DNA from: an uncultured Anaerolineae bacterium
Lineage (GTDB): Bacteria > Chloroflexota > Anaerolineae > Anaerolineales > Villigracilaceae
Direction of reading: 5' to 3'
Assembly (NCBI GenBank): GCA_903908605.1
Contig: CAIVSQ010000220.1
Span: 1-32,061, forward strand
Length of the DNA stretch: 32,061 nucleotides
Positions 10,496 through 31,151 of the stretch are shown here, one piece after another. Numbering within the stretch: position 1 is the stretch's first letter; each line of letters starts with the position of its first letter. Both the position numbers and the translations under genes were made by a program. Under the pieces are notes generated by a model, which was not told the DNA's origin, did no database searches, and worked only from the letters and a program-made list of their open reading frames with translations.

Positions 10496-10540
10496 AAAAT
10501 CTGGATGACAAGGCAGGCAAAGCCCGGTCATCCAGATTTT
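10496..10540 (-). terminator. Rho-independent terminator of the ECF/adenine deaminase operon
   Basis: A perfect 14-bp stem, AAAATCTGGATGAC (10496-10509) with GTCATCCAGATTTT (10527-10540), flanks a 17-nt loop 12 bp after the adenine deaminase stop. It ends only 4 bp before the -35 of the next operon. Confidence 0.8.
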
Positions 10541-10552
10541 AGGTGATTTATT

Positions 10553-12265
10553 TTAAACAAACAAATTGGTCAATTCAAATTTATCGACATCCACCAGGCC
10601 CAGATCGGTCAGCTTTAGGCTGGGAATGACCGAAAGTGCCATAAAACTGAGCGCCATGAACGGGTCGTGCAGCTGGGAGCCCAGACCCGCAGCTGCGATT
10701 GCTAATTGATCATATTGCTCACGCACTACTGCGACAGGCTGGTCGCTCATCAAACCGGCGATAGGCAGCGGCAGGCGTGCCAGAACACCCGTCGCATCCA
10801 CGACCACCATGCCGCCCTGCATGCCGGCAATCTCACGTACCGCGGCGAGCATGCTTTCATCATCCATACCAGCCACGACAATATTATGGTGATCGTGCGC
10901 CACCGTGCAAGCAATAGCGCCAGACTTGAGCCCCAGCCCCTGGATAAAGGCTTTGCCAACCCGCCCTGTGCCAAAGTGACGTTCCACCACCGCCAGCTTG
11001 GCAATATCGCGTGCAGGGTCAGCCACCGCACATCCATTCACCACCAGGGCTGACTCCACCAGGTTGTGGGTGATTAATTGGTCTGGCACCATGCCAATTA
11101 CGCGCACCTTGTTGGATTCTGCCGGAATGGAGAAATCCAGGGCATCCACACGCACATTGATCGTGCCACGGGTCTTGGTATTCGATTTTGGTCGTTCCCA
11201 GGGAGTAACCTGACCCTCCTTGGAAGCCAATTGCCCGCCACGATAAACCAGCTCCGGTTGCAAATCTTGCAGGTCAGAGAAGACCACCAGATCGGCACGC
11301 TTACCAGGTGCAATGGCACCGCGATCATACAAGTGGAAATATTCTGCTGGGTTGAGCGTACCCGCGCGAATGGCCATGACCGGGGGGACGCCATGGGCTA
11401 TGGCAAACCGAATCAGGTAGTCAATCGAGCCCTGGTCCATCAGGTCAGCCGGGTGACGATCATCGGTACATAAGCAAATACGAGACGCGTATTCCGGTTT
11501 GAAAAGCCCCAATAGCGGCTCCAGGTTGTGGGCATTGGTGGCTTCGCGAATAAAGATGGTCATTCCCAGCCGAAGCTTGGATAGGCCTTCCTCCAGATCA
11601 ACACATTCGTGGTCAGAGCCTACACCTGCAGCGCAGTAGGCATTTAAATCGCGACCGCTGACACCCGGGGCATGCCCATCAATCACACGGCCTTTAAATG
11701 CCTGTATCTTCTGTAGAATTCGCCGGTCTCCCTGGATGGTGCCAGGATAATTCATGACCTCACCCAGACCAATCACCCAATCATTGCCAAGCAGGGTGGC
11801 CAGGTCATAAAACTCCAACTGGGACCCACTGGTTTCCATGCTGGTGGCAGGCACGCACGAAGGCGCATCCACATACATGCTTAATGGTCCATATTTGGCA
11901 TCCTGGAGCATGAAGCGAATTCCCTCAAGGCCAAGCACATTGGCGATTTCATGCGGGTCTGAGATGACAGTGGTCACACCATGCGGCAGCACCACGCGCG
12001 CAAACTCACGTGGGGGTAACATCGAGCTTTCGATGTGGACATGTGCATCGATAAAACCGGGGCAAACGTAACGGCCTTGCAGATCAATGACTTCTTTGGC
12101 CTGATAGCCCTGCCCTATCGCGGCGATCTGTTCCCCGGCAATGGCGATATCAGTCGGGTAGATCTCTCCACTGTATACATTGATCAAACGAGCATTCTTG
12201 AGAAGCAAGTCGGCAGGTTGGTCGCCGCGCGCAATACGGATCAATTCCTCTGGTTCAATAGACAT
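10553..12265 (-). CDS. ade: Adenine deaminase
   Basis: This is a 570-aa member of the metal-dependent amidohydrolase superfamily, full length for bacterial adenine deaminase (adenine to hypoxanthine and ammonia; purine salvage). The N-terminal beta-sandwich leads into GFIDAHVHIESSMLPPREFA with the metal-binding His-x-His. PHEIANVLG, IDGHAPG, GSDHECV and the metal-site CTDDRHPADL follow, then the family-specific C-terminal domain with AHDHHNIVVAGMDD and GGMVVVD. All expected landmarks are present. It is the last gene of the operon, starting 14 bp after the ECF transporter gene, and a strong terminator follows. Adjacency to an uptake system suggests that the imported compound, or a product made from it, is an aminopurine or a related ring compound. 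That link is inference. Confidence 0.95.
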   Translation of the reverse strand: MSIEPEELIRIARGDQPADLLLKNARLINVYSGEIYPTDIAIAGEQIAAIGQGYQAKEVIDLQGRYVCPGFIDAHVHIESSMLPPREFARVVLPHGVTTVISDPHEIANVLGLEGIRFMLQDAKYGPLSMYVDAPSCVPATSMETSGSQLEFYDLATLLGNDWVIGLGEVMNYPGTIQGDRRILQKIQAFKGRVIDGHAPGVSGRDLNAYCAAGVGSDHECVDLEEGLSKLRLGMTIFIREATNAHNLEPLLGLFKPEYASRICLCTDDRHPADLMDQGSIDYLIRFAIAHGVPPVMAIRAGTLNPAEYFHLYDRGAIAPGKRADLVVFSDLQDLQPELVYRGGQLASKEGQVTPWERPKSNTKTRGTINVRVDALDFSIPAESNKVRVIGMVPDQLITHNLVESALVVNGCAVADPARDIAKLAVVERHFGTGRVGKAFIQGLGLKSGAIACTVAHDHHNIVVAGMDDESMLAAVREIAGMQGGMVVVDATGVLARLPLPIAGLMSDQPVAVVREQYDQLAIAAAGLGSQLHDPFMALSFMALSVIPSLKLTDLGLVDVDKFELTNLFV

Positions 12266-12279
12266 AGGTTGTTATCCTC

Positions 12280-14307
12280 CTATTTCGGACGGGTGGTTTC
12301 TAAGGCAACTACGCCATCACGAATTACAACAATTCGGTCCGCTTGGGCGGCCATTTTTTCGTCATGGGTTATCACAATAACCGCTTTTCCCTGTTGGCGT
12401 AATTCTCCGATCAGGTGATGCACTTTCGCTATCCCTTCAGCGTCCAGGCCTACCGTCGGTTCATCGAGCACATACGTGCTCAAATCGGTGTTACAGGCGG
12501 CAATTTCCAACATACGTACGTCAGCGGGGTGAAGATCGAGAGGGCAGTCTTCTTCGGCAAGACCGGTGAAGTGCAAGCCCTGCCTCACAAATGATTGTAC
12601 TCTTTCTTCCGGCCATTTCAAAAGTCTTGGCCCAAAATTCAATTCATCTGTCACAGTCATAGCCACAGTTTGTAATGCCGCATGTTGAAAGACGTAACCA
12701 ACCCGCCCTGCTGTGACCACCTTACCCTTCCTGGGGGCAATGGCACCCGCCAGTGTAAGCATGGCGGTGGTCTTACCGGAGCCATTCGGCCCCATGATGG
12801 CGACAAATTCACCCGCCCGCACACTAAATTGGACGCCCTTCAGGATCGGGTTATCTTCAAGCGTCACATGCACATCCTGAAGCTCAGCCACCACGTTGCC
12901 AATGGGTGCCGCCTGCAGGGCAGGGAGGGTTTCCACCAGGCTGGTACGCTGCAACCATTCCGAACTACCAAAAAAATCGCTGGGCGCCAGCTCCGTAATG
13001 ATCTGGCCATCCTCCATGACCACAACCCGATCGACATAGCTTTGTAGTTGGGGCCAGAAGTAATCCGTAACGATGATTGTGCAGTCCCGCCGTGTGCGCA
13101 GAATATTCAACGCATCCAGGAAAGCCGCTCGCCCATCAGGGTCAAGTTCCTGCATGGGAGAATCAAGCAGCAGTATTTTTGCATGCGAAGCAAGCGCACC
13201 GGCCAACACCAGCCGGACCTGCTGCCCGCCAGAGAGCTTGGTTGTTTCTCGCTGCCACAAATGGTCACCCAAGCCCATAGTGGCGAGGGCTGCACGCGCC
13301 TCCGCTTCTTCAGCAATCAGGAATCCAATTTCCTGCGAAATCGTCAACCCATGAATCGATGCAAATGGATCGGGTGCAATATACAAGGCCGAGCCACAAA
13401 TATTGGTCAGGGTTGTATCAGCGGTCACCAACCCTGAGACTTTAACCCCGCCATGATATTCTCCCATGATCCAGGAAATGACACCGCCCATCAGGCGCAG
13501 CAACGAGGTTTTCCCGGCCCTATTTTTCCCGGCCAGGTAAATAAACTCCCCCGGTCGTACAGCCAGGGAAACGCCGTGCAACACGTCTGGCAGATTAGGC
13601 GCATAGCGTACGTGAACATCCGCAATTTCGACACTACCATCTCCCTGGGCAGATGTGCGGTTGTGAGACTGGCTGGCAAAGGCAGCTTTTTGTGAATTAT
13701 CGACGATGCGAGGAATGATGGCAGATGCCAGGGGTACCAGATTGCGAATATTATTGGCCAGTGAATTCCATTTAAGTCCACGCATAAGCAGTGATTGGGT
13801 CAGTGCAATAAATTCCCGCTTGATAATCTGGATACCGCGCAAGATTCCGAGGACCCACTGACGGGCAGGTTTTATCCACTCAAGACCCTCATACATCTCT
13901 GGCAAAGGAGTTACAAATAACCAGGAAAAAGAAATCAGCATGACACCGCACAAACGCATACCCGTTACCAGGCCGCGCTCAAACCCGTTGGAATTTACTG
14001 TAAAGACCCACCAACTGACCCCGCCGTTCGCTGTCGGGGAGAGAATGGTGTTGTAAAACAGCAGAAATCCTCCCGAGATTGGAGCAGCCACAGCCAGAAC
14101 CCAGGGCCTGTTGGGATTTGCAAAAAACAGTACAATACCTGCCAGCATCAACAGAGCAGCACCCACCAGGTTATTAATAAAAATGAACAAAACACCCACC
14201 AGGAAAACAACCGCCAGGCGGGGCACTGGCGAAAGCATCCCCAAGCCCCAACCGCGTGGGTGTGAACCGGAGTTCTCAAACTGGTTTTCTGCGGCCTGAT
14301 TTTGCAT
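12280..14307 (-). CDS. Single-chain ECF transporter: T component fused to two ATPase domains
   Basis: This 675-aa energizing module of an energy-coupling factor vitamin transporter has all three energizing parts in one chain. Residues 1 to about 215 are EcfT-like: hydrophobic helices and the coupling motif SLLMRGLKW, but the second coupling motif reads AAFASQS instead of an A-R-G type. ATPase 1 (about 230-450) has Walker A GKNRAGKTS and signature LSGGQ. Its Q-loop Gln is Ala (YIAPDP), its catalytic Glu is Ser (LLLDSP) and its switch His is Asp (VTDYFWP). ATPase 2 (about 480-675) has Walker A GPNGSGKTT, Q-loop FQ, LDEPT and THD intact, but its signature reads LHPAD. ATG 14307 has AAAGGAAG upstream and is preferred over TTG 14331. 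It follows the S component. Confidence 0.9.
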   Translation of the reverse strand: MQNQAAENQFENSGSHPRGWGLGMLSPVPRLAVVFLVGVLFIFINNLVGAALLMLAGIVLFFANPNRPWVLAVAAPISGGFLLFYNTILSPTANGGVSWWVFTVNSNGFERGLVTGMRLCGVMLISFSWLFVTPLPEMYEGLEWIKPARQWVLGILRGIQIIKREFIALTQSLLMRGLKWNSLANNIRNLVPLASAIIPRIVDNSQKAAFASQSHNRTSAQGDGSVEIADVHVRYAPNLPDVLHGVSLAVRPGEFIYLAGKNRAGKTSLLRLMGGVISWIMGEYHGGVKVSGLVTADTTLTNICGSALYIAPDPFASIHGLTISQEIGFLIAEEAEARAALATMGLGDHLWQRETTKLSGGQQVRLVLAGALASHAKILLLDSPMQELDPDGRAAFLDALNILRTRRDCTIIVTDYFWPQLQSYVDRVVVMEDGQIITELAPSDFFGSSEWLQRTSLVETLPALQAAPIGNVVAELQDVHVTLEDNPILKGVQFSVRAGEFVAIMGPNGSGKTTAMLTLAGAIAPRKGKVVTAGRVGYVFQHAALQTVAMTVTDELNFGPRLLKWPEERVQSFVRQGLHFTGLAEEDCPLDLHPADVRMLEIAACNTDLSTYVLDEPTVGLDAEGIAKVHHLIGELRQQGKAVIVITHDEKMAAQADRIVVIRDGVVALETTRPK

Positions 14308-14370
14308 CGCTATCTTCCTTTCGATTACCAATTCAATGCAGGGACTTTTCGCACGAAAATCCTTTTATTA

Positions 14371-14410
14371 ATTGGCTGCCAGTCACAACAGGTTGCAACT
14401 GGCAGCCAAT
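14371..14410 (-). promoter_or_regulatory. Intercistronic hairpin between ECF S and ECF T-A-A genes
   Basis: A perfect 13-bp stem, ATTGGCTGCCAGT (14371-14383) with ACTGGCAGCCAAT (14398-14410), encloses a 14-nt loop. It lies 29 bp after the S-component stop. The minus strand continues TAATAAAAGGATTTT rather than a clean U-run. It could be a partial terminator or a stabiliser of the upstream mRNA. Confidence 0.6.
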
Positions 14411-14439
14411 CTTCAGAAACCTTCTTTGCCACAAGGCAA

Positions 14440-15213
14440 TTATTCAGCGATCCCAGCGTTACGCAAGCGGGTAGTGTAAAGTGGGAGGAGATAGAGACCG
14501 AGGATAGCGGAAACCAGATCACCTGCAAACCAACCAATACCGGGGTCAATCAGGGCGGCGGCAAGGGGTTTTCCACCCACCGCGGCACCCAACGCGCCGA
14601 TAAACGCGCTCACCACACAAATAATGACTGCAACCAGCAGACCGAAACCGAAATCGCGCATATTCATGGTCATGTTGGCAAACAATAACCAACCGCCCAC
14701 CAGCAATACCACCAGCGGAACCAGGTAACCCCAGACTCCTGGGATATTCAGGCGTGGGCTGAGCATGCCAGATGCCAGCACCAGGATGGTCAGGAGCAGT
14801 GCCCGCATTGCACCAGAAAGCACGTCAGAAGCCTTCTTGGCCCCGAGGGTGGGATCAATTTTCAATAGCTTAAATAACAACCAGGGTAGAAATGCATTCG
14901 CCAAACCGCCTGCGATTGGATTTTGAATAATATCAACCAGTCCCCAACCACCGTAGGACAGAATGCCCGCCGCATAAGCGCCAATTCCACCCGCCAGGGT
15001 TCCATAAACCGGACCAAGCCAGACACCCGCTACTAGTTGCAGCGCCGCAGGCAGCCAAAGGAAACTGGCTCCCTTAACAGTGGGCGATGAGGTAATGGTC
15101 ATCATCACCCAACCCAAAGCTGCAATTGCGACCGCCATGAAGATGGCAAAACCCACCTTCAAAGACGGGTCTCTTTTTGAAATATATTCCCCAGTACCTT
15201 TTGATACTGCCAT
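14440..15213 (-). CDS. ECF transporter substrate-binding (S) component
   Basis: This 257-aa integral membrane protein has about six hydrophobic segments, the size and topology of ECF S components, which bind a vitamin or metabolite and dock on the T-A-A module. The central block SFLWLPAALQLVAGVWLGPVYGTLAGGIGAY has the small-residue-rich pattern of S components, and NPIAGGLANAFLPWLLFKLL follows. Sequence alone does not identify the ligand; it is not an obvious BioY, RibU or ThiT. The neighbours (COG0212 pair and adenine deaminase) point to a thiamin-, folate- or purine-related compound. The ATG at 15213 has AAAGGAG about 7 nt upstream. The gene lies 103 bp after the second COG0212 gene and shares its energizer with no other S gene in view. 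Confidence 0.85.
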   Translation of the reverse strand: MAVSKGTGEYISKRDPSLKVGFAIFMAVAIAALGWVMMTITSSPTVKGASFLWLPAALQLVAGVWLGPVYGTLAGGIGAYAAGILSYGGWGLVDIIQNPIAGGLANAFLPWLLFKLLKIDPTLGAKKASDVLSGAMRALLLTILVLASGMLSPRLNIPGVWGYLVPLVVLLVGGWLLFANMTMNMRDFGFGLLVAVIICVVSAFIGALGAAVGGKPLAAALIDPGIGWFAGDLVSAILGLYLLPLYTTRLRNAGIAE

Positions 15214-15239
15214 TTGAATGCTCCTTTGGAACTATGCTC

Positions 15240-15287
15240 GTCACAAGTGTGACTACAAGATTAAATCCCCGGGAGCCTCCCTCCCAG
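15240..15287 (-). promoter_or_regulatory. Two small hairpins in the leader of the S-component gene
   Basis: The 103-bp gap holds GTCAC-AAGT-GTGAC (15240-15253) close to the ribosome binding site. It also holds a GC-rich stem of CCGGGAG (15269-15275) with CTCCCAG (15281-15287), which includes one wobble pair. I see no match to the TPP, purine or THF riboswitch consensus. Function is unknown. Confidence 0.35.
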
Positions 15288-15316
15288 GTTTTCCAATCAC
15301 ACAGGTAAAATCATCG

Positions 15317-16096
15317 TTAAGGCTTCACCTCCCTGTCCACGAAGTCCGGGCGCAGTTTTCCAACCTGCTCCAGCTGCTGCAGCTCTTGGAGGATGGATAT
15401 ACTCCCCATCATGCCTGGCTCCAGACGATCCCAATAAATACCGCCGGTTGGTTTTTGCGGTGACTCAACATGAAGAACCCGCGTAGGGGTTACGATGTAA
15501 TCGCATACCGTGTCGAAAATGGATATTTCCAGTTCTTCCTCTACGACCTGGCAATCATGGACCAGGTCAACAATGGGGGTGATCACATTTACGACGCCCA
15601 TGGAATATAGAGTGGCCCATTCAATATCAAAAAAACCGTGCCCCTTACCAAAGCGCGCACCCTGGTGGGTAACTGCCGAGCCCCCAGTGACCAGCAGATC
15701 TATATTTGGGTAACGCTGTTGAATTTCAGCCAGGCTGATAAAACGTCCAACGCGTTCAATGACATCTAGCATAATGGCCCAGGTCTCCATGCCTGGCTTA
15801 ACATCCCCGGGCAACAGTTCGATAAATCCGCGACGAATGCCATAGCTGGTCATCAGCAACACTTTCCCATCACGAATGGTCTGCGCGCGCAATAATTCGA
15901 GACAATTATCAGGTGTGATGAAAATCACCTGGGCGTTTTTATAGATTTCCATTTCTATCAGCCGCCGCGTGGCCTGATCACTCCCCTCAAAATCGGTGAT
16001 AAATTCCGAAAAATCGAAGTGGAATCGGCTGTCAGGGCGAGCCACTTTGCTCAATTCTTTCCATACATTTTGCCTGGCGGCGTTTCGATCTGTCAT
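15317..16096 (-). CDS. COG0212 (MTHFSD-like) 5-formyl-THF cyclo-ligase family protein, paralog with intact loop
   Basis: This 259-aa cytoplasmic protein of the 5-formyltetrahydrofolate cyclo-ligase superfamily is of the divergent COG0212/MTHFSD type rather than the housekeeping enzyme. Family landmarks run in order: VWKELSKVARPDSRFHFDFSEF, DFEGSDQATRRL, then YKNAQVIFITPDN. These are followed by DGKVLLMTSYGIRRGF, IDLLVTGGSAVTHQG, the glycine-rich RFGKGHGFFDIEWA, VHDCQVV and DYIVTPTRVL. The glycine-rich loop that binds nucleotide and substrate phosphate in this superfamily is intact. COG0212 proteins have been linked to thiamin metabolism by comparative genomics, but their reaction is not settled. 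The gene follows its paralog by 83 bp and precedes the ECF S component. The ATG at 16096 has a GGAG ribosome binding site. Confidence 0.88.
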   Translation of the reverse strand: MTDRNAARQNVWKELSKVARPDSRFHFDFSEFITDFEGSDQATRRLIEMEIYKNAQVIFITPDNCLELLRAQTIRDGKVLLMTSYGIRRGFIELLPGDVKPGMETWAIMLDVIERVGRFISLAEIQQRYPNIDLLVTGGSAVTHQGARFGKGHGFFDIEWATLYSMGVVNVITPIVDLVHDCQVVEEELEISIFDTVCDYIVTPTRVLHVESPQKPTGGIYWDRLEPGMMGSISILQELQQLEQVGKLRPDFVDREVKP

Positions 16097-16179
16097 TCAT
16101 TTCTCCTATCTATTCTTTCGGATGTTTGGGGTTTACAGTTAATTTTATAATAACGTTCAACCAGGTGAATAGGGATATG

Positions 16180-16902
16180 TTAATCACCCAGCTCACGCAA
16201 CAGCGGAACATCTTGTTTTATCTGCCAGGGTAACGTTCGAATGGAAGCGGATGATGGACGTGGGAAGGGGTTCCCGGTATCGATCTGACGTGTGGGCGTA
16301 ATAATTTTATCGATACTGATCCCATAAGGAAGTGGCGCAAAATACATATCCACCAATTGGCAGTCATGGACGATGGCCAATATAGGGGTTTGCTGGTTCA
16401 CCAGACCAAGAACAGAAAGGATGAGCCATTCCAGATCGAAGAAACTGGGGCCATGACTGACACGAACCCCCTGCATATTTAATACGGACGCGCCGGTGAC
16501 CATTAAATCCGGTCCCTGGGGATGGTCATCAATCGATACCAGGTAAGGCTGTCCAAAAACATCCAACCCATCCAGCGATGCAGCGTACGCTTCCTGACCA
16601 GTGGGCACATGTTGCCTTTCCAGCGACAGCAAACCGCGCGCCAGGCTGTAGGTGGGAACCACCAGGTACTTTTCATCCATAATGCAGCGAGCGCGGAATC
16701 CGGCCAGGCTGTTATCAGGCGCTACCAGAATGCGCTGCGCCTGTCGGTACTCAGGCGTATCACATAGCCGCTCAACACATTGAGCGCTACCTTCAAAATC
16801 CGGGATAAAACGGCTGAAATCCAGGTGGAACCGCGAGTCGGGCCGCGCTACTGTTTCAAGCTGGATCCATACTTGCCTGCGAAGGTTTTCTTTTTCATCC
16901 AT
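16180..16902 (-). CDS. COG0212 (MTHFSD-like) paralog with degenerate glycine-rich loop
   Basis: This 240-aa paralog of the next gene aligns from the first residue: VWIQLETVARPDSRFHLDFSRFIPDFEGS against the same block in its neighbour. It keeps PDLMVTGASVLNMQG, FFDLEWLIL, VHDCQLV and DKIITPTRQI. The glycine-rich loop reads RVSHGPSFFD in place of RFGKGHGFFD, losing the first and last glycines and the lysine. It may have lost catalysis or changed ligand, and could act as a regulator or heteromer partner. I chose ATG 16902 because it aligns exactly with the paralog's start and has GGTGAG upstream; a TTG at 16914 is the alternative. The gene begins 5 bp after the gntR stop, so the two are surely co-transcribed. 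Confidence 0.85.
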   Translation of the reverse strand: MDEKENLRRQVWIQLETVARPDSRFHLDFSRFIPDFEGSAQCVERLCDTPEYRQAQRILVAPDNSLAGFRARCIMDEKYLVVPTYSLARGLLSLERQHVPTGQEAYAASLDGLDVFGQPYLVSIDDHPQGPDLMVTGASVLNMQGVRVSHGPSFFDLEWLILSVLGLVNQQTPILAIVHDCQLVDMYFAPLPYGISIDKIITPTRQIDTGNPFPRPSSASIRTLPWQIKQDVPLLRELGD

Positions 16903-16907
16903 AGGTC

Positions 16908-17666
16908 TCACCAAATAGCGATCTTGTTGGAAGATTGGTCGGAATTGCGCAGCATTTGCAAATCAATCTTATCGGTAATGATGTTCAGTGTGGATTGAAA
17001 AATAGGGCTACCCTGGTCTGAAAGATAAAGCTCACCCAAAGCCAAGAGTGGATACCCTTTTGGAACCTGCAGAAAATCAGCAAGATGCTCATCAGCGCCC
17101 ACAGCTTTCAGAGCGGTCAGGCAATGCGAGATACTACTGCCACTGATTTCCCTGGCAAAACCCATCAAGCCTGAGAAGGCAGGCAAGGGTAACTCATGGG
17201 CGTATTTCGTCACAGCGGGAATTATTGCCTGCAGCCAGGCAGCCGGGACGCCTTCCAATAAATAGAGAATGCGTAAAGTCACCAGCGGGGCTCCTGGATC
17301 AATTTCGAGACTGGCTGCCTGGGATGCACTTGCTGTGCCAAGCGAAAACTCCAGCTTGCCAACCGAGGCAACAGCCCCACCGCGCTGCAGCAGGGCAAGC
17401 GGATCGTTCAGACCGTTGAGAGTGCGGGTAAGTTTATGAAAAGCGGGGCTGACGTACGTACCAGAGCCCTGGCGGCGAATTACCAACCGTCCACGCTCAA
17501 GCTCGGCCAATGCTTCACGAATGGTGGCGCGACTGGTGGAAAACATTTCGGATAACTCAGTCTCAGATGGTAATACTCCCCCAGACTCGTGAAGCCGGTT
17601 GGACTGGATCCAGCTTAGAATTTCCATATAAACCTGGTCTGCCAATGACTGACTGCGAGTGATCAT
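16908..17666 (-). CDS. GntR-family (HutC/UTRA subfamily) transcriptional regulator
   Basis: This is a 252-aa regulator. Residues 5-75 form the GntR winged helix: LADQVYMEILSWIQSN, LPSETELSEMFSTSRATIREALAELERGRLVIRRQGSGTYVSP. Residues about 95-250 form a UTRA-type effector domain (DPGAPLVTLRILYLLEGVPAAWLQAIIP, GYPLLALGELYLSDQGSPIFQSTLNII). UTRA domains bind small metabolites, so the likely inducer is the operon's substrate or a product of it. ATG 17666 has GGAGA upstream and is preferred over GTG 17681. It is the first gene of the six-gene operon. A consensus promoter with an overlapping perfect palindrome lies just upstream, consistent with autorepression of the whole unit. Confidence 0.92.
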   Translation of the reverse strand: MITRSQSLADQVYMEILSWIQSNRLHESGGVLPSETELSEMFSTSRATIREALAELERGRLVIRRQGSGTYVSPAFHKLTRTLNGLNDPLALLQRGGAVASVGKLEFSLGTASASQAASLEIDPGAPLVTLRILYLLEGVPAAWLQAIIPAVTKYAHELPLPAFSGLMGFAREISGSSISHCLTALKAVGADEHLADFLQVPKGYPLLALGELYLSDQGSPIFQSTLNIITDKIDLQMLRNSDQSSNKIAIW

Positions 17667-17709
17667 AATTCTCCACGGCACAACATGCTAGTCGTCTGAC
17701 AACTTTGTT

Positions 17710-17724
17710 CTATAAATATTATAG
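17710..17724. promoter_or_regulatory. Candidate GntR operator overlapping the -10
   Basis: CTATAAATATTATAG is a perfect 15-bp palindrome (CTATAA, ATA, TTATAG) that covers the -10 hexamer and the predicted transcription start. Bound protein here would block RNA polymerase. The AT-rich content makes chance palindromes more likely, so confidence is moderate. Confidence 0.45.
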
Positions 17725-17745
17725 ATAGGAAAAATTAAAAGTCAA
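17718..17745 (-). promoter_or_regulatory. Promoter of the GntR-COG0212-ECF-ade operon
   Basis: On the minus strand, TTGACT (17745-17740), a 16-bp spacer and a perfect TATAAT (17723-17718) lie upstream of gntR. The predicted start is near 17711, giving a leader of about 45 nt. Confidence 0.7.
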
Positions 17746-23074: not shown

Positions 23075-24181
23075 TTAATTCCACAATCTACTGACAAACT
23101 GCACAATATGTTCGAGACCCAGGTCCACCTGACCGGTCTCGATGTATTCATTAATGGTGTGCGCACCACCCCCACGAGTCAACCCTAATACAAGCGCCGG
23201 GTAGCCCTGGCTAAGCGGAACATTGGCATCAGTCGAACCCATGGTCATAACGGGTAGCAAACCCTGCTCATACAGGCAACTCTCAGCCAGGCGAATGATT
23301 GGGTGATCGACACTGATCTCGCCTGGTGGGCGCCAGCCAATTGGCTTCATTTCCAGATCCACCCCTTCGCGCCTGCGTGATTCAACCAGGCTCATGACCT
23401 GCGAATACAGTTGGTCGAGCGCTTCGCGGCCTTCGGAGCGCAGGTCGAGTTCCATCCAGGCCTCAGCTGCAATGGTATTGATACTCGTGCCCCCACCAAT
23501 GCGTCCAACATTATAGGTGGTATGCGGATGAGCAGCAGGTTGTATGGAGGTTATGCCATCAATCAGCCCCGCTAATTCATGCACGGCAGAAGGCTTGCCA
23601 AAGTCCGCCCATGAATGACCACCCCCGGTACGGATACTGATCAAATAACGCCGAACCCCTATCGCTTTGTGATAAATATGCCCAAGAGACATACCCTCTA
23701 GCACCAGGTAGACGATAGGGGTGGAACCGAAACGCTCAACCAGCGCTTTCATGCCGCGCAAATCACCCAGCCCTTCCTCGCAAACATTGGCAACAAACCA
23801 GATATCGCCATCAGTCTGAATGCCACGCTCCCGCAAAGACCACAGCACACCAAAAAGAGCTGCCACACCCAGCGAGTTATCACCAATACCAGGCCCGAAT
23901 ATTTTTCCCTGGCTACGGGTGTAAGCAAGCGGTGTTTCCAGGGGGAACACAGTATCCATGTGCGCCGAAATCACCAACGGTTGCCCATTTCCTTTGCCAG
24001 GCAGGCAGGCCAGTACATTCCCAGCAAAATCGACCTGGATCTGTGTCAGGACACTGCCAGCTTCTTCAATAAACTTCTGTTTCACAAATTCAGCACGAAG
24101 ATACTCATTATGAGTAGGCGCCGGGACTTGTTGAATCTGGATGGCAAGTTCAAGCATTTGATCTACGAAATTGGTTTTCAT
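23075..24181 (-). CDS. M20-family metallopeptidase/deacylase
   Basis: This 368-aa zinc-dependent amidohydrolase or peptidase belongs to the M20 group (ArgE/DapE/PepT/carboxypeptidase G2). The two-metal site is recognisable: SAHMDTVFP (first His and the adjacent Asp), GIGDNSLGVAAL (bridging Asp), NVCEEGLGDLRG (catalytic Glu and metal Glu), LEGMSLGHIY and GGGAHTINEYI (last His). A lid/dimerisation domain sits between, with GGGHSWADFG and GRIGGGTSINTIAAEAWMELDLRS. Substrate specificity is not evident. The ATG at 24181 has AGGGA at good spacing; ATG 24187, two codons earlier, would overlap the pfkB stop by ATGA. Either way it is co-transcribed with the PfkB kinase. It is convergent with the cyclase gene, 24 bp away, with no clear terminator between them. 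Confidence 0.9.
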   Translation of the reverse strand: MKTNFVDQMLELAIQIQQVPAPTHNEYLRAEFVKQKFIEEAGSVLTQIQVDFAGNVLACLPGKGNGQPLVISAHMDTVFPLETPLAYTRSQGKIFGPGIGDNSLGVAALFGVLWSLRERGIQTDGDIWFVANVCEEGLGDLRGMKALVERFGSTPIVYLVLEGMSLGHIYHKAIGVRRYLISIRTGGGHSWADFGKPSAVHELAGLIDGITSIQPAAHPHTTYNVGRIGGGTSINTIAAEAWMELDLRSEGREALDQLYSQVMSLVESRRREGVDLEMKPIGWRPPGEISVDHPIIRLAESCLYEQGLLPVMTMGSTDANVPLSQGYPALVLGLTRGGGAHTINEYIETGQVDLGLEHIVQFVSRLWN

Positions 24182-24183
24182 GG

Positions 24184-25260
24184 TCATCCCTGTTTAACGA
24201 GATTTGATAAAGACTCGAGGCGTGCCCGCGCCAACCCTGGCATGGTATCCAGCATGTAGAACGCGCCGGACCCCTCGATGCAAAAAGAAGCCGATATATT
24301 CCCCTGCATGGCGGCTGCGAGTGGATCACCGGTGGCCGCCATACCCGCCAGGAAACCACCGCAAAAAGCATCCCCCGCACAGGTAGGGTCAACCAACCGG
24401 GACGGGTAAGCTGGGATCTCCCATTTTTTGGCACTTGAGCGCTCAAAAACATACTGCCCACGCCCACCTCGCTTGATAACGATCACTTCGCACCCAAAGC
24501 TGGCCAGCGTAGCAGCCATTTCCCATAAATCATTGGTTCGACCCCAAAACAGACTGCGGATCTCCTCTTCGGATGGCAGGAAGGCCGTCACACCCTGCAA
24601 CAACGACCGCAAATCGTCCAGGTAGTTGGCGGTCATATACCCAGGGCCAGGGTCGATGGTGACAATCTGCGCGCCAGCATGCCTGAAGGCTGGTGCCAGC
24701 TGGGTATGTGTCAACAGATCCAACGGAGCCAGGTGAACAGCCTTTGCCAGGTAATAATCATCTGGGATATCTGCGAGTTTTGGAGAATCCAGGTTGGCCA
24801 TCCTACGATTATCCTGTTCCGATTGAGGGGGCTGATAACCGAGCAAACCTTTTGGAAATGGCAAGCCCAGGCGCACAAAATGGGATACCGGGTTGGTGCG
24901 CTGATAATTCTGTTGATCTGTGTACACCATGAAGGTGCGCATATCAAGCGACCCCGGCAATATTTTGATTCCACGCGAGTCCAAGCCAAATTTTTGAAAC
25001 GATTTCAGCCAATCATGAGGATAATTTTCAGCCACACGGGAGAGAAGTAAAACAGAATCCGCCCAGAGCCGGGCTCCCGCACCGGCGTATAATAAATTTC
25101 CACCTGGAACATCCAGGAGAGGACGACCCTCGGGAGGGATTAAGTACTGGCGACGAAGTTGCCCGGCGAAGACGAGGGAATAATCCATGACTGTTAAATA
25201 ACCTGTGAAATAGAGTTCTTTGCGAATTCGCCATTGAAGTGGCGATGCATCTTCGAGCAT
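24184..25260 (-). CDS. PfkB-family carbohydrate or nucleoside kinase
   Basis: This 358-aa sugar-kinase-fold protein has the N-terminal PfkB signature region in LLDVPGGNLLYAGAGARLW. The C-terminal signature is VDPTCAGDAFCGGFLAG, where the catalytic Asp is kept but the first Gly of the usual GAGD anion hole is Cys. The middle carries IVTIDPGPGYM, FLPSEEEIRSLF and EVIVIKRGGRGQYVF, typical of ribokinase-like enzymes. The substrate is unknown. The ATG at 25260 gives 24 residues before the conserved MDYSLVFAG start. ATG 25188 is an alternative, and neither has a clear ribosome binding site. A consensus promoter lies upstream. It is divergent from the inositol-phosphate synthase gene and is followed directly by the M20 gene. 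Confidence 0.88.
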   Translation of the reverse strand: MLEDASPLQWRIRKELYFTGYLTVMDYSLVFAGQLRRQYLIPPEGRPLLDVPGGNLLYAGAGARLWADSVLLLSRVAENYPHDWLKSFQKFGLDSRGIKILPGSLDMRTFMVYTDQQNYQRTNPVSHFVRLGLPFPKGLLGYQPPQSEQDNRRMANLDSPKLADIPDDYYLAKAVHLAPLDLLTHTQLAPAFRHAGAQIVTIDPGPGYMTANYLDDLRSLLQGVTAFLPSEEEIRSLFWGRTNDLWEMAATLASFGCEVIVIKRGGRGQYVFERSSAKKWEIPAYPSRLVDPTCAGDAFCGGFLAGMAATGDPLAAAMQGNISASFCIEGSGAFYMLDTMPGLARARLESLSNLVKQG

Positions 25261-30096: not shown

Positions 30097-30615
30097 TTGG
30101 ACAAATTACTGCTTTTATTCTGGACATTTTTAAAAGTCAACCTGCTGAGTACATCGGGACCTGCTTCGGTAGGTTTGCTGTACAAGGAAGCGGTTGGCCA
30201 TTTTCTCACCGAGCAGCAATATATCCAGGCGGTCGGCTTTTCCACCCTGCTACCAGGATCAGACGCGCTGCAGTTGGCCATGTTTGTGGGGTTCACCGTG
30301 GCGGGTATTCCTGGCGGGACAGTTTCACTTTTGGGTGCCATCCTACCACCGACTGTCTTGATGTTCGGGGTTGTTTCGGTCCTTCACCGTATTCGCCGTG
30401 AATCATGGGTAACCAGCTTCGTGGAAGGACTGACACCAGCCGTCGCGGTGCTGATGCTCTTTGTAGCCTGGAAAGTGTTCAAAGGCGGCAACGGCGGGCT
30501 GGGATGGCAATCCCTGCTAATCGGCGCAGTGACACTGGTAGCACTGCTGTTTGAATTACCAGCACCCCTGGTGATATTTGCCGCAGGGTTGGCAGGAGTG
30601 TTTTTCTTCCGATGA
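30097..30615 (+). CDS. Short CHR-family (chromate-transporter-like) membrane protein, first of pair
   Basis: This 172-aa membrane protein has one half of the duplicated ChrA fold, as in bicomponent short-chain CHR transporters. The conserved order is FLKVNLLSTSGPASVGLLYKEAV, then EQQYIQAVGFSTLLPGSDALQLAMFVGF, then GAILPPTVLMFGVVSVL. Two family hallmarks are changed: the usual GGP near the start is SGP, and LPGP is LPGS. Chromate as substrate is therefore doubtful; a different anion is possible. It starts at TTG 30097, supported by AGGGA 5 nt upstream, and ends in an ATGA overlap with its paralog. Five or six hydrophobic segments are visible. The two proteins probably form an antiparallel heteromer. 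Confidence 0.82.
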   Translation: MDKLLLLFWTFLKVNLLSTSGPASVGLLYKEAVGHFLTEQQYIQAVGFSTLLPGSDALQLAMFVGFTVAGIPGGTVSLLGAILPPTVLMFGVVSVLHRIRRESWVTSFVEGLTPAVAVLMLFVAWKVFKGGNGGLGWQSLLIGAVTLVALLFELPAPLVIFAAGLAGVFFFR

Positions 30616-31151
30616 ATACCCCTTCAAAATTTTCAGTTTGGACAAAATTATTCTGGATGTTTCTAAAAGTTAACATCCTGACCACTTCCGGCCCGGCCTC
30701 GGTAGGGTTGCTTTATAAAGAATCAGTCGGCACAATCATGAGCGAAGCACAGTTTGTGGAAGCTGTTGGACTGTCTAATATCCTGCCAGGCAGCGAGGCT
30801 CTTAAGCTGGCCATGTTTGTTGGCCATGCTGCCGGTGGAATGCCGGGTGTCATGGCCGCACTGATAGGTGCGGTACTTCCCCCTACGATCATCATGCTCA
30901 CCGTGGTTTCCATCCTGGAACGCTACCAGGGTGAAGTCTGGATGCAAAATTTTATCAAGGGCATGTCACCAGCCGTGGGCGTGCTGATTGCACTCGTTTC
31001 CTGGCAAATCTTTAGATCCGATGCCAGTAAATCTATTGGCCGGCGCGCCTTGGCCATCGCCTTGGCAGCTTTTGTGGCATTATGGTTCGATCTGCCTTCT
31101 CCATTCGTTTTACTGGGTGCGGGGATACTGGGAGTCTTATTATTCAGATGA
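30612..31151 (+). CDS. Short CHR-family membrane protein, second of pair
   Basis: This 179-aa paralog of the preceding gene aligns over its full length: FLKVNILTTSGPASVGLLYKESV, EAQFVEAVGLSNILPGSEALKLAMFVGH, GAVLPPTIIMLTVVSIL. It has the same SGP and LPGS variants, so these changes predate the duplication or are required by the function. It has a slightly longer N-terminus (NTPSKFSVWTKL). Both ends overlap neighbours by ATGA (30612-30615 and 31148-31151), the tightest translational coupling in the window. With its partner it should make a complete two-chain transporter in the cytoplasmic membrane. The substrate is unknown. Confidence 0.82.
   Translation: MNTPSKFSVWTKLFWMFLKVNILTTSGPASVGLLYKESVGTIMSEAQFVEAVGLSNILPGSEALKLAMFVGHAAGGMPGVMAALIGAVLPPTIIMLTVVSILERYQGEVWMQNFIKGMSPAVGVLIALVSWQIFRSDASKSIGRRALAIALAAFVALWFDLPSPFVLLGAGILGVLLFR

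Follow-up and report, generated by a model that had tools for sequence, protein, structure and literature searches.

A conserved and apparently undescribed operon, probably for the uptake and salvage of one compound, lies on a 32,061-nucleotide contig of an uncultured Anaerolineae bacterium (Chloroflexota; CAIVSQ010000220.1), called the window here. It combines a GntR/UTRA regulator, two paralogues of the COG0212 family (COG0212a and COG0212b), an energy-coupling factor (ECF) transporter and the adenine deaminase Ade. Two types of transporter and two types of deaminase around enzymes with the predicted fold of 5-formyltetrahydrofolate cyclo-ligase (MTHFS or 5-FCL) suggest a purine-type substrate yielding adenine, and such a substrate is likely. 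With a probability of about 0.4, the operon imports and salvages a base of purine type, for which a formamidopyrimidine (FAPy) with opened ring, such as FAPy-adenine, is the most likely candidate. MTHFS phosphorylates the formamide oxygen of 5-formyltetrahydrofolate and closes a five-membered ring. FAPy-adenine is proposed because this chemistry on the purine-type substrate would give adenine. Three lines of evidence point towards purines: the deaminases, the amidohydrolase contexts of the S family, and neighbouring nucleoside hydrolases and an AMP phosphorylase.

The operon and its relatives

The source genome (5.77 Mb, 612 contigs, 91% complete) contains the operon on contig 220, the window. 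Gene identities were computed from profile matches. The features are:

16908–17666, minus strand: regulator of the GntR/HutC type, 252 aa, with a GntR helix-turn-helix (PF00392 62.4 bits) and a UTRA ligand domain (PF07702 39.9 bits), both above cut-off
16180–16902, minus strand: COG0212a, MTHFS-like paralogue with a degenerate glycine-rich loop (S150, H151, P153, S154, numbered as in the window COG0212b; PF01812 23.3 bits, below the cut-off of 27)
15317–16096, minus strand: COG0212b, MTHFS-fold protein, proposed ATP-dependent cyclo-ligase (PF01812 43.8 bits, above cut-off)
14440–15213, minus strand: ECF-type S component, 257 aa (no Pfam or NCBIfam match; seven-helix model)
12280–14307, minus strand: ECF T component (CbiQ) fused to two ATPase domains, 675 aa (PF02361 52.2 bits at 26–214; PF00005 112.1 bits, two stretches)
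10553–12265, minus strand: adenine deaminase Ade, 570 aa (TIGR01178 618.6 bits, cut-off 472.5)
17718–17745, minus strand: promoter-like TTGACT-16-TATAAT, 11 of 12 consensus bases
17686–17703, minus strand: candidate GntR operator GTTGTCAGACGACTAGCA, including the 15-mer GTCAGACGACTAGCA that is the same in the related locus L020
17709–17725, no strand assigned: AT-rich palindrome TCTATAATATTTATAGA, overlapping the −10 element and not found upstream of GntR in L020
10496–10540, minus strand: intrinsic terminator with a 14-bp perfect stem, a loop of 17 and a T-rich tail

With ATG starts at 17666, 16902, 16096, 15213, 14307 and 12265, the intergenic gaps are 5, 83, 103, 132 and 14 bp. The six genes form one minus-strand operon; genes, gaps, consensus promoter and terminator were all found again as described in the original prediction, which was made from the sequence alone. 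Taken alone, the promoter call is weak (12 sites in a scan of the window, shuffle mean 7.4). The automatic terminator scan omits the hairpin at 10540–10496, with a loop limit of 8 against an actual loop of 17. Ade is the sole Adenine_deam_C match in the source genome, at its 91% completeness.

The module is rare within its own class: COG0212b relatives at E ≤ 1e-12 occur in 7 of 396 genomes, own genome included. One of the same-class genomes (G443) and the Anaerolineales metagenome-assembled genome (MAG) UBA6131 give the same locus. The computed conservation reaches across phyla, and the module is not a single-genome oddity. Of 156 pattern matches in GTDB species genomes, a profile of the COG0212 branch with the motif RPDSRF...PDFEG identified 82 as encoding stretches, and 80 were kept as loci. 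L020 (Chloroflexi Dive96_bin10.148) has the order of the window, GntR–COG0212a–COG0212b–S–TAA; its contig stops 0.2 kb past the ECF gene, ahead of any deaminase. L128, from another family of Chloroflexota, has S–T–AA–COG0212. This layout or parts of it are also present in Thermoproteota, with ECF genes in six of seven loci. The typical layout in Pseudomonadota is a divergent RpiR gene, COG0212a, an NMT1 binding protein, an ATPase, a permease and COG0212b.

An NMT1 binding protein was found in 57 of the 80 loci, ECF genes in 7 and either of them in 64. The ECF count leaves out the archaeal L069, where an upstream open reading frame (ORF) is ECF ATPase-like by eye, and includes L076 despite T and A genes on opposite strands. 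At least two COG0212 matches, fragments included, occur in 55 loci, full-length ORFs alone in 50, and two full-length genes on the same strand in 49, made up of L020 and 48 loci with an NMT1 protein. A COG0212 pair with a private ECF transporter had been considered an unfamiliar layout. It recurs in L020, but the pair is not specific to ECF systems, since 48 of 49 pairs are accompanied by an NMT1-type ABC transporter. COG0212a, RpiR and permease matches in L080 and L091 are in several pieces, hence broken or mis-sequenced copies.

The COG0212 paralogues

The AlphaFold2 model of COG0212b has a pLDDT of 93.2. Among the top 11 Foldseek rows, eight are titled 5-FCL/MTHFS or related. The other three are chains of 1ydm, which is titled in the PDB as a structural-genomics target only and which we take to be a 5-FCL. 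The matches include 3hy4, human MTHFS in complex with an N5-iminium phosphate. These matches of a predicted structure indicate that COG0212b has the MTHFS fold. R8, R148 and D157 are kept in 63, 61 and 61 of 63 alignment rows. R148 and D157 align with R145 and D154 of human MTHFS, and R8 presumably pairs with R14; R14, R145, K150 and D154 of the human enzyme are assumed to have ATP-site roles. Within the RPDSRF...PDFEG motif, D22, R24, D35 and F36 are invariant (63/63), and the RPDSRF motif is missing from three other COG0212 proteins compared. Neither paralogue reached the cut-off of 84.9 bits of the MTHFS equivalog model TIGR02727 in NCBIfam (COG0212b 27 bits, COG0212a no match). An ordinary MTHFS-family gene is located elsewhere in the source genome (contig C11, 118 bits), so the operon pair is probably not the housekeeping MTHFS, and a housekeeping 5-FCL identity was rejected as unlikely.

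COG0212a has diverged. The glycine loop is gone from the a-copies of the window and L020 (S150, P153 and others). R148 and D157 are missing as well in the Actinomycetota copies of L083 and L086, whereas the proteobacterial copies inspected (L022, L042) have retained the loop. In L083 (4929–5924) and L086 (9016–9981), a GntR helix-turn-helix is fused straight to the COG0212 domain with no UTRA match; the COG0212 part of L086 is slightly under the Pfam cut-off. The MTHFS-like domain occupies the place of the effector domain in these fusions. Lost loop and fusions suggest that COG0212a of Chloroflexota and Actinomycetota may be a sensor or a divergent partner. A quick tree, built without bootstrap replicates from the 69 sequences (of 134) that remained after clustering at 85%, joins the window COG0212b to the proteobacterial second gene with an SH-aLRT of 98. 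A single clade for all a-copies was unsupported; those of Chloroflexota, Actinomycetota and Pseudomonadota fall in separate groups.

Transporters, deaminases and the substrate

The T component and two ATPases were confirmed in the fused protein (CbiQ and two ABC_tran stretches). The S component matches no described S family in Pfam or NCBIfam, and a firm grouping with an unrelated vitamin family, named beforehand as evidence against the uptake system, was not found. An archaeal S relative reached 20 bits with QueT, under the cut-off of 33.7. The best PDB match of the S model is 4dve (E 0.0085, probability 1.00), with no match at E ≤ 0.001; the two best matches are BioY chains, and RibU, PanT and ThiT are in the following rows. 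Searched alone, the window S protein found relatives in 2 of 301 Chloroflexota genomes, the S profile in 12 of 301. As a single query it had no match in the set genome_contigs. Distant S relatives, linked through the profile and a 13-row alignment, adjoin Atz/Trz-type amidohydrolases in five of 11 contexts examined (L118, L121, L123, L124, L127), four of them from one family of genomes (f28). For the amidohydrolases of L118 and L121, the best models are 5'-deoxyadenosine deaminase and N-ethylammeline chlorohydrolase, with 8-oxoguanine deaminase also high and all below cut-off. In L118 (2866–12331), the S–T–AA genes are located between molybdenum-hydroxylase subunits and the amidohydrolase; they may perhaps encode a transporter for an oxidised heterocycle. 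A nucleoside hydrolase is 3.7 kb off the S relative in L126.

The second transporter type, an NMT1/THI5-type ABC transporter, adjoins COG0212 in Pseudomonadota and Actinomycetota. PDB matches were sought for two of its binding proteins. The sole match of L042 was 3ix1, a formyl-aminopyrimidine (FAMP) binding protein; L022 matched 4nmy (ligand not named), then 3ix1, then THI5. Relative to 4nmy, the stretches WTPNTNH and IFEGW are exchanged for WINDAEF and DFTTN. We infer that the NMT1 protein belongs to an aminopyrimidine-pocket lineage, with 3ix1 and THI5 as the nearest members with a named ligand or role.

An A_deaminase-type enzyme, of another family than Ade, was found in 17 of the 80 loci (16 Pseudomonadota, 1 Actinomycetota), which are species representatives, several of a common genus, and not 17 independent events. 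The enzymes are 51–100% identical to that of L060. Thirteen genes are within 1.5 kb of COG0212; four are partial, two of these with fewer than 160 residues. The best PDB matches of the deaminases of L060, L086 and L038 are 3ou8/3pan/3pao/3pbm and 3rys, with E-values of 1e-100 or lower; the entries that follow reach no more than 4e-32 to 1e-33. We take these structures to be the adenine deaminases PA0148 and AAur1117. Their PDB labels are adenosine deaminase, as is the NCBIfam name of the L060 enzyme (NF006850 542 bits, TIGR01430 370 bits, both above cut-off). If the enzymes act on adenosine, the purine reading would hold and the adenine step would be weaker. Twenty chosen genomes were also searched genome-wide. 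L065 (Thiomonas) and the Salinicola loci L042, L044 and L053, none with the gene shown in the locus, have it elsewhere in the genome (54–59% identity). Six of 15 alphaproteobacteria had a match at E ≤ 1e-40 with at most 35% identity. PF13382 is encoded in all 15 of these genomes with this COG0212 branch versus 6 of 14 controls; the set is chosen and related (13 with a transporter, L046 and L081 without), hence supportive only.

Other neighbours concern nucleosides and formamides. COG0212 has a nucleoside hydrolase as direct neighbour in L021 and within 1 kb in L024, and an AMP phosphorylase (TIGR03327, above cut-off) is the convergent neighbour in the archaeal L076. Contig 84 of the source genome (L017, 37–4950) has a second GntR–COG0212 locus, of another COG0212 branch, with an M42 peptidase, a nucleoside hydrolase and a PnrA-like binding protein. 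Genes of the FmdA/AmdA formamidase family are near COG0212 in L023, L031 and L097 and 2.9 kb off in L083 (L097 and L083 confirmed by Pfam), which points again to formamide chemistry, as in the proposed ring closure. L097 (8017–10726), L023 and L031 are Anaerolineales MAGs.

In the proposed mechanism, the S component would bind FAPy-adenine (4,6-diamino-5-formamidopyrimidine) or a similar base, and the fused T-A-A module would power transport, presumably inwards. With ATP, COG0212b would activate the formamide oxygen, and ring closure with the adjacent amine would form the imidazole ring of adenine. Ade would convert adenine to hypoxanthine and ammonia, for purine salvage or as a nitrogen source. 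COG0212a would act as divergent partner or sensor, and GntR would repress at GTYGTCAGACGAC until the ligand appears. Ring closure is plausible at a tentative level.

Several observations weigh against this reading. TM-scores of the COG0212b model with MTHFS are moderate (0.47–0.53 by query length). The position of human K150 is a histidine in 57 of 63 rows, so the ATP chemistry of COG0212b may differ from that of MTHFS. To our knowledge, no enzyme closes FAPy bases, and a natural supply of these bases is unproven. Neither transporter is present in 16 of 80 loci, of which contig ends cut a few; in the transporter-less L023, L031 and L097, COG0212b is near formamidase-family and DUF1028 genes. 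COG0212 with ECF recurs, but Ade proper adjoins the module in the window only, and Rhizobiales operons have no deaminase beside them. In the gene calls, the S-like genes of L121, L123, L124 and L127 have neither T nor A genes as neighbours. The molybdenum hydroxylase of L118, of the xanthine-dehydrogenase family, reaches none of the cut-offs; the best score of the large subunit is with 4-hydroxybenzoyl-CoA reductase, not xanthine dehydrogenase. Thiamin genes near COG0212b in Salinicola, described below, belong to the same side.

Purine uptake may also proceed without ring closure. Adenine or a modified adenine would be imported and deaminated by Ade, and the COG0212 pair would catalyse another ATP-dependent step on the purine or a one-carbon unit. 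The links to two deaminase families, nucleoside hydrolases, AMP phosphorylase and Atz/Trz-type amidohydrolases fit this possibility, but it leaves the MTHFS-fold enzymes, the most constant part of the module, unexplained and gives no reason for an NMT1 binding protein related to a FAMP binder. It is possible, if somewhat doubtful. Far less can be said for reduced-folate uptake, in which the pair would be true cyclo-ligases for imported formyl-folate. The MTHFS fold of COG0212b agrees with it; the missed TIGR02727 cut-off, the separate MTHFS-family gene and an S component without a folate-transporter family match do not, and the deaminases would have no explanation. This is very improbable.

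Salvage of the thiamin pyrimidine, as hydroxymethylpyrimidine (HMP) or FAMP, corresponds to the interpretation of COG0212 in the literature at family level, and the NMT1 protein is kin to ThiY and THI5. TenA, under a thiamin pyrophosphate (TPP) riboswitch, is next to COG0212b in Salinicola aestuarinus, and in four further loci of this genus ThiC is no more than 8 kb away (L047 confirmed by NCBIfam). Plant COG0212 is co-expressed with THIC (PMC4120688, PMC5874261); this plant protein may sit in another COG0212 branch. The window has no Rfam match and no TPP riboswitch. Among 11 relatives scanned, one riboswitch was found, that of S. aestuarinus, on the opposite strand ahead of TenA. A tblastn search of 81 sequences with Salinicola proteins gave one TenA and four ThiC, all from Salinicola. 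Thiamin salvage offers no obvious role for the adenine deaminases and is unlikely here. Among the substrates first suggested, a formylated purine or pyrimidine is favoured without proof, and reduced folate and thiamin are weakened; the idea of one compound taken up and salvaged is supported, as are a conserved gene order and an S component without a described family.

Regulation and comparison with known systems

An identical 15-mer, GTCAGACGACTAGCA, was computed upstream of both Chloroflexota GntR genes (window and L020). It belongs to the palindrome GTYGTCAGACGAC, just past the −10 element, perfect in L020 and with one mismatch in the window; the candidate is also written GTTGTCAGACGAC. The AT-rich palindrome TCTATAATATTTATAGA, initially considered for reconstruction of the regulon, is real but probably not the operator, given its overlap with −10 and its absence upstream of the L020 operon. 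The 15-mer is the better candidate. With up to two mismatches, the AT-rich palindrome occurs at five places in the genome, fewer than its reversed control pattern (29). The 13-mer of the new operator occurs once perfectly and once with a mismatch, against 11 and 17 for reversed controls. Neither pattern gave convincing further sites in the genome, so the regulator looks local and a wider regulon could not be reconstructed from the palindrome.

Elsewhere in the window, an M20 peptidase and a PfkB kinase form a pair on the minus strand (23075–25260). Two adjacent paralogous ORFs (30097–31151; 172 and 179 aa) resemble half-size chromate transporters (ChrA) by eye.

COG0212b resembles MTHFS (PF01812) in its predicted fold and the Arg and Asp positions of the ATP site. 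It differs by the RPDSRF...PDFEG motif, the histidine for K150 and a score below the MTHFS cut-off. Pribat et al. reportedly described COG0212 in 2011 as a 'thiamin-associated' 5-FCL paralogue (cited in PMC4120688). The proteins here are of the same COG, but have links to purine-type enzymes, with thiamin neighbours in one genus only. The proteobacterial version of the module shares the NMT1-type binding protein with the ThiXYZ/ThiY FAMP transporter (3ix1). TenA is beside these operons only in one Salinicola; other thiamin-salvage genes were not searched singly. Group I ECF transporters of the YkoEDC type have dedicated S, T and A components. The window is similar in having all three within one operon and differs by the fusion of T and both ATPases and by an S component outside the described families. 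No description of the operon or of an enzyme closing FAPy bases came up in searches of the open-access literature in PMC, judged mainly from titles and abstract openings, and within this scope the original description of the system as undescribed holds.

COG0212 is a family of unknown function tied to thiamin. A conserved module that occurs with either of two exchangeable types of transporter and with deaminases of two families turns attention from thiamin to purines. COG0212b and its kin could conceivably be the first enzymes to restore the imidazole ring in purines whose ring has opened, with transported FAPy salvage in Chloroflexota, Pseudomonadota, Actinomycetota and Thermoproteota and an a-paralogue turned ligand sensor (GntR-fused in Actinomycetota); this wider picture is rather unlikely as a whole. 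If ring closure is true, cells would recycle oxidised purine bases. GTP cyclohydrolases open the purine ring to FAPy nucleotides (PMC12135143). The ring-open intermediate is of the same kind; the ring is opened there, whereas closure is proposed here. The step would be the same as in the proposed prebiotic FAPy route to purines (PMC12135143).

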